DNA of 64,000 nucleotides from Gemmatimonadaceae bacterium. Lineage in GTDB: Bacteria > Gemmatimonadota > Gemmatimonadetes > Gemmatimonadales > Gemmatimonadaceae. Below are positions 17,443-45,674 of the stretch, piece after piece; positions within the stretch are counted from its first letter, which is position 1; the number at the start of each line of letters is the position of its first letter. The notes beneath the pieces are model-generated. The model was not told the origin of the DNA. It made no database searches and worked only from the letters and a program-made list of their open reading frames with translations. The translations under genes were made by a program, and so were the position numbers. The DNA lies in assembly GCA_022843265.1 (NCBI GenBank), contig JALHNZ010000010.1, positions 1-64,000 on the forward strand, read 5' to 3'.

Positions 17443-18243
17443 ATGACGTCGTCGCAAGAGTCGCAGGATCGCGCAAGAACGGCGGCGTTGGATGCATCGC
17501 TGGCACGGCTGGATCTCGTGACCTCAGCAGTTGAAGCGGGTGGTGCCAAGGTGGTACTGCGTAAACCGCGCAGCGCGGAGTCGCTTATCTGCGAGGAGGA
17601 CTTCAAGGGTGACGAACGCCTGCCCTACTGGGCCGATGTGTGGCCCTCGTCTCGTGCGCTCGCCGGTGTGTTGCGTGGACATCAGGGCGAAGGGCGCACG
17701 CTGCTTGAGCTCGGATGTGGTGTCGGGCTCGTTTCTGTAACGGCGTTACGCGCGGGCTTCAGCGTGATGGCCACCGATTATTACAGCGACGCACTCGAAG
17801 TCACGCGGCTGAACGCGATGCGATTGGCTGGAGACGGCGACGCACGATTGCGCACGCGATACGTGGACTGGCGCGCGTTGCCAGATGATCTGGGCCGCTA
17901 CGATGTGGTCTGCGCCGCGGATGTCTTGTACGAGCGCGAGTACGCGGCGCTCGTGGCGGATACGATCATGCAAACGCTCGCGCCTGGTGGACTTGTCCTG
18001 ATTGCAGATCCCGGCCGAGCCGCGCTCGCGCCGTTCCGAGAGGAAGCGGCCAGCCGAGGTTTGCGGGAAACGGATGCGCTCACGGTTCTGGTGCAGCCGG
18101 AAGCGGCGTCTGGCGATCTGGTGCAACGCGCACGGCCCGGCGCGGCAGGAATGACGAGCGGCGCGCCCGGCTTACCGCCGGCGCACCGCGTCACCGTGTA
18201 TTCGTACCAGCTCGGCAGCACCACACCGCCCTACAGCCGTTAG
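17443..18243 (+). CDS. Class I SAM methyltransferase (METTL21/Nnt1-like)
   Basis: 266 residues. SAM-binding motif I is LLELGCGVGLVSVTALRAG, followed by the acidic VMATDYYSDALEVTRLNA strand end and CAADVLYEREYAALVADTI. The preceding LPYWADVWPSSRALAGVL is the family signature of METTL21/Nnt1-type protein lysine or small-molecule methyltransferases. The C-terminal 50 residues are Ala/Gly/Pro-rich. Substrate unknown. Its 3' end overlaps the convergent GNAT gene by 4 bases. Confidence 0.85.
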   Translation: MTSSQESQDRARTAALDASLARLDLVTSAVEAGGAKVVLRKPRSAESLICEEDFKGDERLPYWADVWPSSRALAGVLRGHQGEGRTLLELGCGVGLVSVTALRAGFSVMATDYYSDALEVTRLNAMRLAGDGDARLRTRYVDWRALPDDLGRYDVVCAADVLYEREYAALVADTIMQTLAPGGLVLIADPGRAALAPFREEAASRGLRETDALTVLVQPEAASGDLVQRARPGAAGMTSGAPGLPPAHRVTVYSYQLGSTTPPYSR

Positions 18244-18923
18244 CGCTGCGGCTTTGCGTGATAGACCGTGGGCGCTGACACGAGGTTCGTATTGTTGGCC
18301 ACGCGCGGAAAGGCACGCGGCGCGCGCAGCCGCTTGCGAAAGCAACGCTTCGCCACGAGCGTTGCGCCGCTCTCGCTGAGCACCGCATACCGCGCCCGCT
18401 TTTCCGGAAAGCGCTCAAGCGTGGCCGAGCGATAGCCGAGGTGTGAAAAGAAGTGGTCTGCGAGCGACAGCGCAAAAAGCTCACGGTGCCCGCGTACGCG
18501 CGCCAGGCGCTCCACGGCACGCACCACGATCGAACCGAGACCATGCCCCTGCGCGGCTGGCGCCACGGCCACTGATGCAACTTCGGCCAGTGACGGCGAA
18601 TATTCTGCCAGTGCCGCGCAGGCGAGCACAGCCCCATCGGGCGCCGTCACCACCACGTACGAATCGATGGCGTTCAGCACATCGGCGGCACTGCGCGGCA
18701 GCAACGAGCCGTCGGCCGTGTAGCGGCTGATGAGCGTGGCAATACCCAACGCATCCGCCGGCTGCGCGACACGGGCGCGCAACGAGGTTGACGTGCCCTG
18801 ACGCGCGAAGTTCGACGCGTCGGTGCGACGTGAATCCCGGGCGGTCGGCGTGGTCGGGACGAGTCCCGAGACGACGACCGCCCCGTCACCGGCGAACCGG
18901 CGCAGGGCGGAGATATTATGCAT
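18240..18923 (-). CDS. GNAT N-acetyltransferase, ArgA-like
   Basis: Up to 227 residues. The GNAT fold begins near residue 47 (LRARVAQPADALGIATLISRYTADGSLLPRS) and includes the acetyl-CoA motif VAPAAQGHGLGSIVVRAVERLA. The R-x-A...D...I..L...G.LLPRS pattern is like the acetyltransferase domain of N-acetylglutamate synthase, so an amino-acid acetyltransferase role is plausible but not proven. The ATG at 18923 sits inside a perfect 11-bp-arm palindrome (18915-18937), and the first 46 residues show no family similarity, so translation may start later, for example at a TTG just before RARVAQ. Confidence 0.8.
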   Translation of the reverse strand: MHNISALRRFAGDGAVVVSGLVPTTPTARDSRRTDASNFARQGTSTSLRARVAQPADALGIATLISRYTADGSLLPRSAADVLNAIDSYVVVTAPDGAVLACAALAEYSPSLAEVASVAVAPAAQGHGLGSIVVRAVERLARVRGHRELFALSLADHFFSHLGYRSATLERFPEKRARYAVLSESGATLVAKRCFRKRLRAPRAFPRVANNTNLVSAPTVYHAKPQR

Positions 18924-18937
18924 TCTGAATGCATAAT
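18915..18937. promoter_or_regulatory. Perfect 23-bp palindrome, probable operator
   Basis: Two perfect 11-base arms (ATTATGCATTC and its complement) surround a single T at 18926. The region is AT-rich against the high-GC background. It overlaps the predicted start of the GNAT gene and lies downstream of the FeS oxidoreductase gene. It looks like a dimeric repressor site; TGCATAA-type half-sites occur in some ArgR operators, which would fit an ArgA-like enzyme, but that assignment is a guess. Confidence 0.6.
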
Positions 18938-18958
18938 GATGCAGGACCCCGTATGCAA

Positions 18959-19013: not shown

Positions 19014-21059
19014 TCAGGCGCCCTGCGCTACTCCTGCCAGCTGGCCGGCGACCACCTCGGCGATGTCCATGACCGGCACCTCGCTGCCGGAGGCGGTGAG
19101 ACCGTCGGTCATCATGGTCATGCAGAAAGGACACGCCACCGCGATCGTATCCGCGCCGGTGGCCAGCAGTTCTTCCGTGCGTTCCACATTCACGCGCTTA
19201 CCTTCTGTTTCTTCCATCCACATGCGTCCACCACCGGCGCCGCAGCACAATCCGCGGCTCTTCGTGCGCGGCGGCTCGACCAGCGTGATCACAGGGAGCG
19301 CCTTGCGCAGCGTATTGCGCGGCGCGTCGTACACATCGTTGTAGCGACCGAGATAACACGAGTCGTGGTACGCAACCTTGAGGCGCTGCCCATGTTCCGT
19401 CTCAAGCGGCACACGCCCTTCGTTGAGCAAGCGCTCAATGTACTCGGTGTGATGGATCACGTCGTAATGTCCACCGAGATCGGGAAACTCCTTGCCCATC
19501 TGATGGAAGCAGTGCGGACAAAACGTGACGACCGTCTTGACCTGATAACCATCAAGCGTTTCGATCACCCCCTTGGCGAGCATCTGATACAAATACTCGT
19601 TGCCCATACGACGCGCCGGATCACCGTGACACGTCTCCTCCTGGCCAAGGATGGCGAACTTCACATTCGCGGCCTGCAGGATACGCGCGAATGCGACGGT
19701 GATTTTTTTCGCGCGATCGTCGAACGAACCCATGCAGCCCACCCAGAACAGAATCTCAGGGCGTTCCTCACGCGCGGCCATATCAGCCATGGTGGGAATG
19801 TCGAGTCCCTCAGTCCACGCAGCGCGATCGGCCGCGCTGAAGGCCCACGGACTGCCGTTGCGTTCAAGCGAGGTCAGCGCGCCCTGCGCCTCTTCAGGGA
19901 ACCGTGATTCCATGAGCACGAGATCGCGACGCAACTCGTTGATCACATCGAGTTGATCAATCGACACCGGACATTCTTCGACGCAGGCGCGACAGCTGGT
20001 GCAGGCCCACAGTTCCTCTTCGGTAATCCAGTCGTCGAGCAGTCGCTTGTCGAGTACGGCCTGCTGCTCGGCGGTTGCGGTACCGCCAGCAATAGCGTCG
20101 AGCGTCTGCGCTTTTTCCGTGAGACGGGCGCGAGTTTTCACCACGATCATGCGCGGCGAAAGTTTTTTGCCCGTGATGTTGGCCGGGCACGCGGCGGTGC
20201 AGCGTCCGCACTCTGTGCACGAATACCCATCCATCAGGTTTTTCCACGACAGGTGCTCAACATCGTTGGCACCGAACTGCTCCGCGTCTTCTGCTTCGAG
20301 ATCCATTGGGCGCATGGCGCCAATGCGACCCGGGCCCGACGTGTTCGAGTACCACGTGTTGATCAGCGACGTCAACACGTGCAGATGTTTGGAGAACGGC
20401 AGGTAGTTCGCAAAGAACAGCAGGCCGAGCGCGTGAGTCCACCAGCTCGAACGTCCGAGCAGATGCGCCGCGTTGGCGCTGAGTCCACCAAACAGCGAGG
20501 CAATCGGGGCCGAAAAAATGTGTCCCGTCGATGCGCCGCCCGCGTGGATCTCCATCGCGAAGGTGAGCAGCAGCGTGACCATGAGCACCGTGATCATGCT
20601 CAGAATGAACAGCGCGTCGCCGCCGTGCACCGGATCACCGCTGAAACGTTTGGGCTTGATGACCAGGCGTCGGTAGAACAACCACGCCACCGCGGCGAGC
20701 ACCAATCCGCAGAAGAGTTCCTGCGAGAAGATGTACACGACGAAGAGCGGCTGCGGCAGAATCCACGCGTAAGTGAAACCGGTCACGACGCCCTGGATCA
20801 GGATTTCCAGTGCACCGAGTGCCAGTACGCAGAACCCCCAGAACACCAGCGCGTGCATCAGGCCACCAAACCCGTCGCGCATGATTTTTGTTTGCGCGAT
20901 ACCAACCAGCAGCAGGTTTTTTGTGCGCGTTGCGGGATCGTTGGTACGATCCTCAGCGTGTCCGATCAGCGCCCAGCGGCGCAGTCGCAGCGCACTCCGG
21001 GTAAAGAAGGCGCCGGCTGCCACGAGACAGAGCGCAAACACGATGTTCAGCAGAGTCAT
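19014..21059 (-). CDS. ETF:menaquinone-type membrane FeS oxidoreductase (FadF/EMO-like)
   Basis: 681 residues. The N-terminal 235 residues are a multi-helix membrane domain of the nitrate-reductase-gamma type with several His residues for b-haems. Two 4Fe-4S motifs follow: [12 protein letters not shown] (281-292) and [12 protein letters not shown] (353-364). The C-terminal CCG-type module has [37 protein letters not shown] and CPFC. This architecture matches proteins that pass electrons from electron-transfer flavoprotein to the menaquinone pool (FadF/EMO). The etfBA genes lie about 3.3 kb away on the same strand and an acyl-CoA dehydrogenase further on, which fits that role. Confidence 0.87.
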
Positions 21060-21234
21060 AAGGCGAAACTAGGGCGCGACCCTGACCGGGACAACCCGCC
21101 AACCGGAGACGACTGACCCGACACACACGCCCTTCACGCGAGGACCGAAGGCCGGGGACTCACCCCCGGTCATTCAAGTCCACCGCTCCCCTGCCGAACC
21201 TCCGGGTACGGGGCATCTATGCAACATCTCCGTC

Positions 21235-43457: not shown

Positions 43458-45674
43458 CTATGACGCGATCGTCTCCAGTCGCTGCTGCACGGCGTGCAGC
43501 AGCGATGTCGGCGTGAACGGCTTGGCAAGGAATCCGGTGTTCGGCGTCTCGAGCAAATCGTCGAGTGCGTTTGTTTCGCGGTAGCCGGACACGAACAGCA
43601 CCGGGAGATCATGGCGACGCTCACGCAGTGCGGTCACCAGCTCAGGGCCTCCCATACGCGGCATCACCACGTCGGTGACAACGAGCGCGAGCTGCGAAAG
43701 CGTATGTTCGTCGCAGCGTTCAATCGCATCCGCTCCGTTGCTCGAGGCCAGTACTGTAAACCCATGCCCTGTCAGCACGCGCGCGACAACGGCACGCACC
43801 GCCTGCTCATCTTCGACCAACAACACCGTGCGACCAGGCCGCAGCGCGGGCGCCGGCGAGTCAGCCTCTTGAACATCGACTCGACTGCCTTCCGGTTCAG
43901 GCGGGAGAAACAGTCGCACGGCGGTGCCGTGTCCGGGCGCGCTTTCCACCCAGATATGTCCTGCATGCTGCGCGAGCGTACCGTACACCATCGCCAATCC
44001 GAGGCCGGTTCCCTTGCCGACTGGCTTCGTGGTGAAAAACGGTTCGAAGGCACGATCGAGCACGTCGGCGCTCATACCGGAGCCGGTATCGCGCACCGTG
44101 ATCACAATCCATTGGCCGGTCGGCACGCCGTGTGAGTGATCGATATCATCGGCCCGCACGATCACGTTGCGTGCCGTGAGTACGATCTGCCCGCCCGTCG
44201 GCATCGAGTCGCGTGCATTGACGACCAGATTGACCAACGCCTGTTCGAGCGAGGCGGTGTCGAGTCGGGCCAGTCGCACGTTTGCATCCGCCTCAACGGT
44301 GAGCGAGATGTGCTCACCAATGAGGCGTTTGAGCAACGCGGTAATGTCGTGCAACATCCCATCGACACGTACGACGCGCGGTGAAATTTCGGTTCGACGC
44401 GCAAAGGCCAACAGCTGTCGTGTCAGGGCCGCCGACCGATCAGCCGCGTCGAGCGCTGCATCAAGCTCCTGACGTGCCGGATGTCTTGGCTCCAGCGTGT
44501 CGCGGGCAAGCTCCGTGTTGCCGATGATTGCCGTGAGCAGGTTGTTGAAGTCGTGCGCCACACCACCCGCAAGCTGTCCGATGCTTTCAAGCTTCTGTGC
44601 TTGTACGTCTCGCGACTGACGCTCCTCAAGGCGCTGCGCCATCTGATTGAAACTCGTGGCCAATCGACCGAGTTCACGCGTGCGTGCGACTGCTGTGGTG
44701 CGCGCGCCAAGTTCACCTGCGCCGAGGCGCTCGGTGAGCCCGAGCAGGGCGCGGACGTCGCGCAGCACAAACGAATCCGTTGCCCACCAGGCCAGCGCGG
44801 CCACCAGTAACAACCAGGCGGCGAGGCCAAACAATGCATTTCGCATGGCGGCATCGATGCCCGCATAGATCACGTTCGCCGGAATCCCGACCGCGAGAAA
44901 CGTGGGCAATGTATCGCTACTCGGCAGTCGGTCGAACGCCCAGACACGACGCACGCCGTCAATGCCGAGCGCCTCCAGCACACCTTTGCCCTGCTCGCGC
45001 ATGGTCGCGGCAACGCTGACCATGCTCTCGGTGTTCGCATTCGCCGGCGCGGCGGGCGAGCGGAAGAACATTTCGCCCGTGGCCGCCGTGATCGATAGAA
45101 CGGCGCCAGGCGTCTCGGACATGGTGGTGACAAGCTTGTCAAACCAACGCACACGCAGTCCCGCGGAAAGTGCACCGTCAAAGCTTCCGCTTTCGGAAAT
45201 CATTGGCACATTCACGGGCAGGAGCAGCTCGTCTGTGCCGGTGGCCCGCATGAAACGACCCACCGTTGGTGACTGCAGCTCACGAAGCTGCAAGAAACGC
45301 GGGGTGTCAGCAACACGTCGCGGCAAGACGCCAACGTCCCGCGTCGCACAATCCTGAACGCCGTCGGCGCGCGTGCGGGTAATGGACCAGCCTTCTTCCA
45401 CCATCCGTCCAATCGAAAGCAGCGCACGTTGACAAGCCTCGCTGTCGCCGCTGCGAATCTGCGGCAGCAGACTGATACCAGTCAGAATACGCTGACCATC
45501 TTCAATTGCTTCCTGATGCTGTCTGATCGCGATGTCCACGAGCTGAACGGCCGTCGCTTGCGCGGCCTCGACACGCATCTGTCGTTCACGCGACAGAAAC
45601 ACAACGAGCAGCACAAAGGACGGTACCAGCACTACCCCAACCAGCAGCAACAATCGAACGCGAAGACTCGACAT
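43458..45674 (-). CDS. Hybrid sensor histidine kinase with C-terminal receiver
   Basis: 738 residues. TM1 (7-27), a periplasmic sensor region (30-275) with three or more cysteines, TM2 (279-299), HAMP (302-355), HisKA with phosphoacceptor His374 in GGVAHDFNNLLTAI, and an HATPase with N486 (NLVVNARDSM), DTGSGM and GKGTGLGLAMVYG. The receiver domain (616-735) has VLLVEDE, phospho-Asp668 in VVTDVVMPRM and Lys in AKPFT. The order HisKA-HATPase-REC with no output domain suggests a phosphorelay to an unlinked regulator. Divergent from the M20 peptidase. Confidence 0.92.
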   Translation of the reverse strand: MSSLRVRLLLLVGVVLVPSFVLLVVFLSRERQMRVEAAQATAVQLVDIAIRQHQEAIEDGQRILTGISLLPQIRSGDSEACQRALLSIGRMVEEGWSITRTRADGVQDCATRDVGVLPRRVADTPRFLQLRELQSPTVGRFMRATGTDELLLPVNVPMISESGSFDGALSAGLRVRWFDKLVTTMSETPGAVLSITAATGEMFFRSPAAPANANTESMVSVAATMREQGKGVLEALGIDGVRRVWAFDRLPSSDTLPTFLAVGIPANVIYAGIDAAMRNALFGLAAWLLLVAALAWWATDSFVLRDVRALLGLTERLGAGELGARTTAVARTRELGRLATSFNQMAQRLEERQSRDVQAQKLESIGQLAGGVAHDFNNLLTAIIGNTELARDTLEPRHPARQELDAALDAADRSAALTRQLLAFARRTEISPRVVRVDGMLHDITALLKRLIGEHISLTVEADANVRLARLDTASLEQALVNLVVNARDSMPTGGQIVLTARNVIVRADDIDHSHGVPTGQWIVITVRDTGSGMSADVLDRAFEPFFTTKPVGKGTGLGLAMVYGTLAQHAGHIWVESAPGHGTAVRLFLPPEPEGSRVDVQEADSPAPALRPGRTVLLVEDEQAVRAVVARVLTGHGFTVLASSNGADAIERCDEHTLSQLALVVTDVVMPRMGGPELVTALRERRHDLPVLFVSGYRETNALDDLLETPNTGFLAKPFTPTSLLHAVQQRLETIAS

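Follow-up and report, generated by a model that had tools for sequence, protein, structure and literature searches.

A Predicted ArgR Operator over the Promoter and Start Codon of a Short argA-Type Gene and of argC

Introduction

The consensus of the ARG-box half-site in Escherichia coli is TGAAT. According to the available excerpts, ArgR operators of E. coli comprise two 18-bp ARG boxes that are 3 bp apart (PMC6640053), and ArgR operators lie over promoters (PMC3293853). For Streptomyces coelicolor, ARG boxes are listed in ArgR-bound DNA, e.g., TCATGCATGAGTATGCAGAA of argH (PMC5839063, Table 1), and several boxes given in the excerpted parts of this source overlap or touch start codons, namely argG box 2 at -2, argC at 18 or -3, and pyrR at -13. 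Streptomyces ARG boxes overlapping start codons are also mentioned in a footnote of PMC3293853. As far as these excerpts reach, ARG boxes overlapping start codons (in Streptomyces) and ArgR operators situated over promoters are thus both already known. In case of leaderless bacterial genes, the -10 element is reported to be located about 12 bp before the start (excerpt of PMC3160421).

Here we describe a palindrome that very probably represents the core of an ArgR operator overlapping both promoter and start of a short argA-type gene. Judged by the excerpts of PMC6640053 and PMC3293853, the predicted operator resembles those of E. coli in a box core with a 4-bp centre, in inner half-sites spaced as in the 18-3-18 arrangement and in a promoter of the sigma-70 type. 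It differs in its half-site, which is TGCAT instead of TGAAT, in a second box that is degenerate and located in coding sequence, in a start codon within the operator, and in the predicted lack of a leader. The ARG boxes of argH, argG, and argC in S. coelicolor have the same core, but are contiguous (20+20) according to the excerpted parts of PMC5839063, and the excerpts of PMC5839063 and PMC3293853 do not present the start codon as a constant component of a palindrome. With leaderless genes of Actinobacteria and Deinococcus-Thermus, as presented in the excerpts of PMC3160421 and PMC12340547, the locus shares the position of the -10 element relative to the start codon; unlike in those genes, -10 element and start codon would here also be the operator of a repressor, and the -35 element at 17 bp is strongly kept. 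The encoded protein resembles short-form ArgA, PRK07922, and PRK07757 by its GNAT domain, and is also similar to the C-terminal part of ArgA, but differs by an N-terminal leader encoded by the operator and by scores below every NCBIfam cut-off. In the excerpts at hand of the literature on ArgR and ARG boxes with regard to leaderless mRNA, start codon, operator overlap, and argC, this arrangement is not described.

Results and Discussion

Palindrome and Occurrence of the Site

The window, i.e., the whole 64-kb stretch of DNA that was analyzed, contains the perfect 11-1-11 palindrome ATTATGCATTC-T-GAATGCATAAT at 18915-18937, and the ATG (18923-18921) of the minus-strand ORF 18240-18923 falls within it (Table 1). 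The palindrome is an AT-rich spot in surrounding DNA with a GC content of 64%. Perfect palindromes with arms of at least 11 nt and a spacer of 0-1 nt occur twice in the window, compared to a mean of 0.08 in simulations. By itself the palindrome is just moderately unlikely; its significance results from its conservation in relatives. The second palindrome, TCGCTGCTGCACG-G-CGTGCAGCAGCGA at 43479-43505, is perfect and GC-rich with 13-bp arms. It lies in a reading frame of 738 aa that resembles a hybrid histidine kinase, close to the 3' end of this frame, adjoins a convergent gene end and is devoid of a T-run.

Table 1. Observed and predicted features at the GNAT locus and related sites of the window genome.
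Feature	Position	Strand	Remark
Palindrome, most likely the inner two half-sites of the operator	18915..18937	-	TTATGCAT-N5-ATGCATAA at 18916-18936
Putative ARG box 1, 18 bp	18928..18945	-	core TGCATCATTATGCA at 18930-18943, 10/10 half-site bases
Presumed ARG box 2, 18 bp	18907..18924	-	core TGCATAATATCTCC at 18909-18922, 6/10 half-site bases
Predicted -35 element TTGCAT	18953..18958	-	17 bp ahead of the -10 element; TTG kept in 28/29 orthologous promoters
Predicted -10 element TATGCA	18930..18935	-	-12 to -7 of the start codon; in the left arm of the operator (gene sense)
Predicted GNAT start codon ATG	18921..18923	-	in the right arm of the operator (gene sense); in frame in 29/29 site-bearing orthologues examined
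Predicted transcription start	at or beside the A of ATG 18921..18923	-	
Short ArgA-like GNAT acetyltransferase gene, predicted N-acetylglutamate synthase	18240..18923	-	
Stretch of 28 nt in codons 12-21, of the latter codon only the first base	18863..18890	-	identical in three species of the genus
Operator site (predicted)	C4:39012-39032		between divergent argR and argC
Operator site (predicted)	C4:39606-39626		between argR and argH

In relatives, the site follows the consensus TTATGCAT-N5-RTGCATAA. At up to two mismatches, only three sites are present in the window genome, situated at the GNAT gene, in the gap between argR and argC, and in the gap between argR and argH. The identities of argR, argC, and argH are given by NCBIfam matches above cut-off, and argB and argD lie behind argC. 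At three mismatches, the scan of this genome did not rise above the control (5 and 7 vs. 9 and 8). The bare core TGCAT-N5-ATGCA occurs at four exact places in the window genome; the copies at C5:37851 and C18:31099 lack the outer TTA/TAA, are located inside long open frames and not at arginine genes, and were taken as chance occurrences. A search for TATGCATAA, confined to the window, was uninformative.

Among 146 family genomes, 89 contain the site at up to one mismatch and 57 do not, and the reversed control pattern gave 3 hits in all. The matches listed correspond to 89 distinct places, of which 69 are within 1 kb of argR, 18 at most 200 bp from a GNAT start, and 2 at argC, with none left over. 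For the GNAT gene, the best 30 loci of a search in 148 genomes of the family were compared with the pattern TTATGCAT-N5-ATGCATAA. Except for L056, all of these 30 best-scoring loci carry the site, with at least 13 of 16 bases, ahead of the enzyme domain.

Start Codons within the Predicted Operator

Each of the 29 GNAT orthologues that were examined and carry the site has its right-arm RTG (13 ATG, 16 GTG) in frame with the GNAT domain, and the 52-136 nt from the end of the site to the equivalent of residue 49 are free of stops. Another ATG, GTG, or TTG ahead of the domain is lacking in 17 of these 29 leaders, among them that of G050, a member of the same genus. Most likely, the operator contains the GNAT start codon. 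An earlier reading of the window from its letters alone (here termed the sequence-only reading) had correctly described the perfect 11-1-11 palindrome, its AT-rich position, the GNAT gene, and about 46 residues ahead of the conserved domain. The alignment of homologues that it proposed for finding the start points to the RTG of the site. Its choice between an operator with a start further downstream and a site controlling translation initiation appears to be wrong as posed, since the comparison indicates an operator with the start inside it.

ArgC, which is unrelated to the GNAT protein, offers an independent test of the start due to its conserved N-terminus. Inspection of 66 argC loci of the family yielded 63 that include the ArgC start region, the exceptions being L096, L109, and L113. 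In 58 of these 63 (59 with the weak case of L185), ArgC begins at the site as [MV]-[HN]-. An inner spacer of 5 bp was found in 49 and one of 6 bp in 6 of these starts, a further one originates from a separate scan, and two, as well as the weak L185, were recognized by eye; the patterns of the scans behind most of these counts left the start base free. A longest-ORF call would begin argC of the window genome upstream of the site. At L145, the contig ends too early.

In L149, L151, and L153 the operator is kept, and the argC start codon is replaced by a CTG that is out of frame with ArgC. These three cases all belong to one genus and perhaps represent one event.

In the window genome, a gap of 35 bp separates the site between argR and argH from the argH ATG. 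The RTG of this site is not in frame with argH, and a -35 element at 17 bp was not found. Of the three sites of this genome, two thus show the composite layout. A perfect copy of the predicted operator is also situated between argR and argH at L095 (9607-9627), where the RTG is not the argH start. The frame of 21 codons beginning with this RTG, MHKFSTALNVRHCNYEFACFV, extends over the argH start in another reading frame.

Of the best 30 loci of a phylum search (L115-L144), all of which belong to other families, 29 contain a recognizable ArgC start and none reaches 13 of 16 site bases. By eye, many of these argC genes seem to directly follow another gene, and an ARG-box-like sequence is found immediately upstream of argC in L115 and L116. 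Among 14 more loci from outside the family (L191-L204), five gave no ArgC motif. In L200 and L201, two genomes of a sister family, a canonical box, TG[CA]AT-AATC-ATGCA, begins at the argC ATG, and L196 shows a weaker likeness to such a box. The full element hence seems to be characteristic of the family, and the overlap with the start codon may be older than this element.

Promoter Elements and Predicted Leaderless Transcripts

A total of 29 GNAT and 50 argC regions were aligned on the site. The argC regions were required to have an inner spacer of 5 bp and an RTG in frame, i.e., their start codons are selected, and their -35 elements and outer half-sites are unselected. With the first base of the start codon as +1, TATNNA is located at -12 to -7 in 27 of 29 GNAT and 49 of 50 argC regions, and TTG at -35 to -33 in 28 of 29 and 47 of 50, respectively, with a spacer of 17 bp. 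The full TTGACA occurs in 31 of the 50 argC and in none of the 29 GNAT regions, the latter having TTGC. The promoter of argC in the window genome reads TTGACA-N17-TATGCA-N6-GTG, and for the GNAT gene the corresponding elements are TTGCAT, a 17-bp spacer, TATGCA, and the ATG (Table 1). Shine-Dalgarno-like 4-mers at -18 to -5 were observed in neither the 29 GNAT nor the 50 argC regions.

Due to the position of the -10 element at -12 to -7, the TTG(ACA) 17 bp further upstream, and the missing Shine-Dalgarno sequence, leaderless mRNAs are predicted for the GNAT gene and argC. In 44 ORFs of the window and 191 ORFs of related loci, TANNNT at -12 was not visible as a general signal of leaderless genes, and leaderlessness is therefore proposed for these two genes only. 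At 21040-21075 (minus strand), the Fe-S oxidoreductase gene upstream of the GNAT gene has TAGTTT 12 bp before its ATG, another possible leaderless start.

ARG-Box Architecture

An outer half-site TGCAT is located at -20, 4 bp ahead of the inner ATGCA. In the argC regions, a scan for TGCAT reveals a clear peak at this position (3.78 of 5, next best 2.26). In the GNAT regions, -20 scores 2.93 of 5, which is the best value apart from that of the -35 element (3.41 at -34, caused by its TTGC); position -14, which overlaps the inner site, scores 2.76. Due to the 4-bp distance between outer TGCAT and inner ATGCA, box 1 reads TGCAT-N4-ATGCA, the core of known ARG boxes. Compared to TG[CA]AT-N4-AT[GT]CA, it matches at all 10 half-site bases here and at a mean of 7.48 of 10 for the 29 GNAT and 8.66 of 10 for the 50 argC regions.

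A mirrored half-site at +11 is the best downstream position in the GNAT regions (2.41 of 5); for argC this position scores 1.94, and other downstream positions reach 2.58. The inner half-site of box 2 is perfect and the outer one poor, with 6 of 10 matches here and means of 7.41 (GNAT) and 6.82 (argC). In the window genome, the outer half-site is degenerate (1 of 5), and boxes 1 and 2 are 3 bp apart. In two genomes of the sister family, the second box is canonical. These scores suggest a second box that lies in coding sequence and is weaker than box 1. If it is real, the boxes would have 18 bp each and a distance of 3 bp, as in E. coli, and the palindrome would most likely be the pair of inner half-sites, one from each box.

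ArgR as the Candidate Regulator

The window genome encodes a repressor of the ArgR/AhrC family (PF01316 at C4:39098-39289, E 4.7e-20) that passes the NCBIfam argR cut-off (136 bits, cut-off 130). Its best PDB matches, which extend over nearly the full length, are arginine repressors, with 1f9n being AhrC of B. subtilis and 3ere, 3laj, and 3lap being ArgR of M. tuberculosis. In the family, argR was found in 130 of 148 genomes. The presence of the site tracks that of argR (87 of 129 genomes with argR and 2 of 17 without, P 1.4e-5), an association that is not independent, since the site often adjoins argR. In G074 and G096, with a completeness of 74% and 98%, respectively, the GNAT site is kept and argR was not detected.

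The sequence-only reading had guessed an ArgR box. This guess is strongly supported by the presence of argR, by the copies of the site beside argR, argC, and argH, for which it had suggested a search, and by an upstream box with ArgR geometry. Translation from 18923 seen in N-terminal peptides, along with a lack of copies near arginine genes, was named there as speaking against the proposal; a start at 18923 is indeed indicated, by comparison and not by peptides, and copies near arginine genes are present.

GNAT Enzyme and a Conserved Stretch in Its Leader

From about residues 46-50 onward, the protein matches models of GNAT and ArgA-type acetyltransferases. All scores are below the curated NCBIfam cut-offs, with 85.3 bits (cut-off 154) for the best match PRK07757, 62.6 bits (cut-off 180) for short-form PRK07922, and 77.8 bits (cut-off 344) for ArgA. 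As no curated ArgA model was passed, we refer to the protein as ArgA-like and not as ArgA. In a sample of 95 genomes, 36 carry GNAT homologues within 8 kb of argR. The shared operator and this position of the homologues near argR suggest N-acetylglutamate synthase activity, and we infer this function from both.

The three species of the genus that have this gene show an unchanged third base in 13 of 13 codons with unchanged residue over codons 4-21; for codons 49-227, this applies to 44 of 124 (P 4.6e-6). After realignment, the values are 12 of 12 over codons 6-25 and 44 of 118. The 28-nt stretch 18863-18890 (minus strand) is identical in the three species, has a single copy in the genome, and has mutually exclusive pairing partners upstream and downstream (by eye; fold z -1.86). 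A sub-threshold miRNA match was the only result obtained from Rfam for this stretch. The extra codon conservation was not seen in the other genera tested, two sets of which had no invariant residue, and conservation of the 28 nt is an observation in three genomes, too few to decide. It is tempting to speculate on a 21-bp word that acts as -10 element, as two repressor half-sites, and as leaderless start in two unrelated genes across the family and thereby dictates their first residues (mostly M/V-H), combined with a genus-specific control at the RNA level in which codons 12-21 could pair alternatively with CCGCCC on the upstream or CGACCGCC on the downstream side. As a whole, we regard this extended scenario as rather unlikely.

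Alternative Explanations

Although at least one comparable palindrome was present in 5 of 60 simulated windows (first-order Markov), the likelihood of a chance palindrome is next to nil, as this is refuted by conservation: 29 of the 30 GNAT loci with the best scores carry the site in the same position. A GNAT start downstream of the palindrome, e.g., at the TTG of codon 48, would turn the palindrome into an operator within an untranslated leader. This would be in agreement with residues 1-45 lying outside the acetyltransferase match, save for one weaker model that begins at residue 41, and with codons 12-20, which are base-identical in three species of the genus as expected for an untranslated element. 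However, none of the 29 leaders examined contains a stop or is out of frame, and 17 of them, that of G050 of the same genus included, offer no alternative start. Furthermore, the leaders of 7 genomes from three other genera retain HLSATH (HLTVTH in one), with variable third bases at 2 of its 4 invariant residues, and ArgC begins at the same place in the site. We consider a downstream start highly improbable and disfavour it due to the in-frame, stop-free leaders and the ArgC starts.

The arms could also form an RNA hairpin that hides the start codon and controls translation, corresponding to the translational option of the sequence-only reading. They are able to pair, with the start codon in the 3' arm, and most inner pairs are kept, A-U and G-U both occurring at the start-codon base. 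However, the predicted transcription start excludes the left arm from the mRNA. Pair-breaking changes, from GC to AC in 11 of 29 GNAT regions and at the outermost pair in 22 of 50 argC regions, are never compensated, and conservation extends to the -35 element and the outer upstream half-site, for which a hairpin has no need. Due to the left arm being upstream of the predicted transcription start and to the uncompensated breaks, such a hairpin is very unlikely. A regulator other than ArgR, related to arginine or nitrogen, has an equally slim chance. The site is retained in two genomes in which argR was not detected, the match of the second box is weak, and ArgR binding at this locus is deduced from sequence; against this, the upstream box matches known ARG boxes in core and spacing, sites adjoin argR itself, and the site is found predominantly in genomes with argR, with the dependence mentioned above.

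Proposed Mechanism and Implications

For an operator bound by ArgR, the TATGCA of the -10 hexamer at the GNAT gene would at the same time be the left inner half-site (gene sense), and the start codon would be part of the right one (RTG-CAT-AA). The predicted start of transcription is at or beside this codon, which would give a leaderless mRNA without a Shine-Dalgarno sequence. When arginine is plentiful, an ArgR hexamer with bound arginine would span about -22 to +17 and cover -10 element, transcription start, and start codon, by which RNA polymerase would be excluded. The first step of arginine synthesis, i.e., the formation of acetylglutamate by the GNAT enzyme, would thus be shut off together with the reductase step of ArgC, whose gene starts with the same composite element.

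Owing to the natural variants (ATG, GTG, and CTG; spacers of 5 or 6 bp), the trade-off between operator and start codon is accessible to direct testing. A wider question is whether a repressor placed over a leaderless start acts on transcription only. If the proposed arrangement is true, gene starts could be called from DNA with unusual certainty, and the site would represent a compact operator under three constraints, in which sigma factor, repressor, and ribosome read the same bases.
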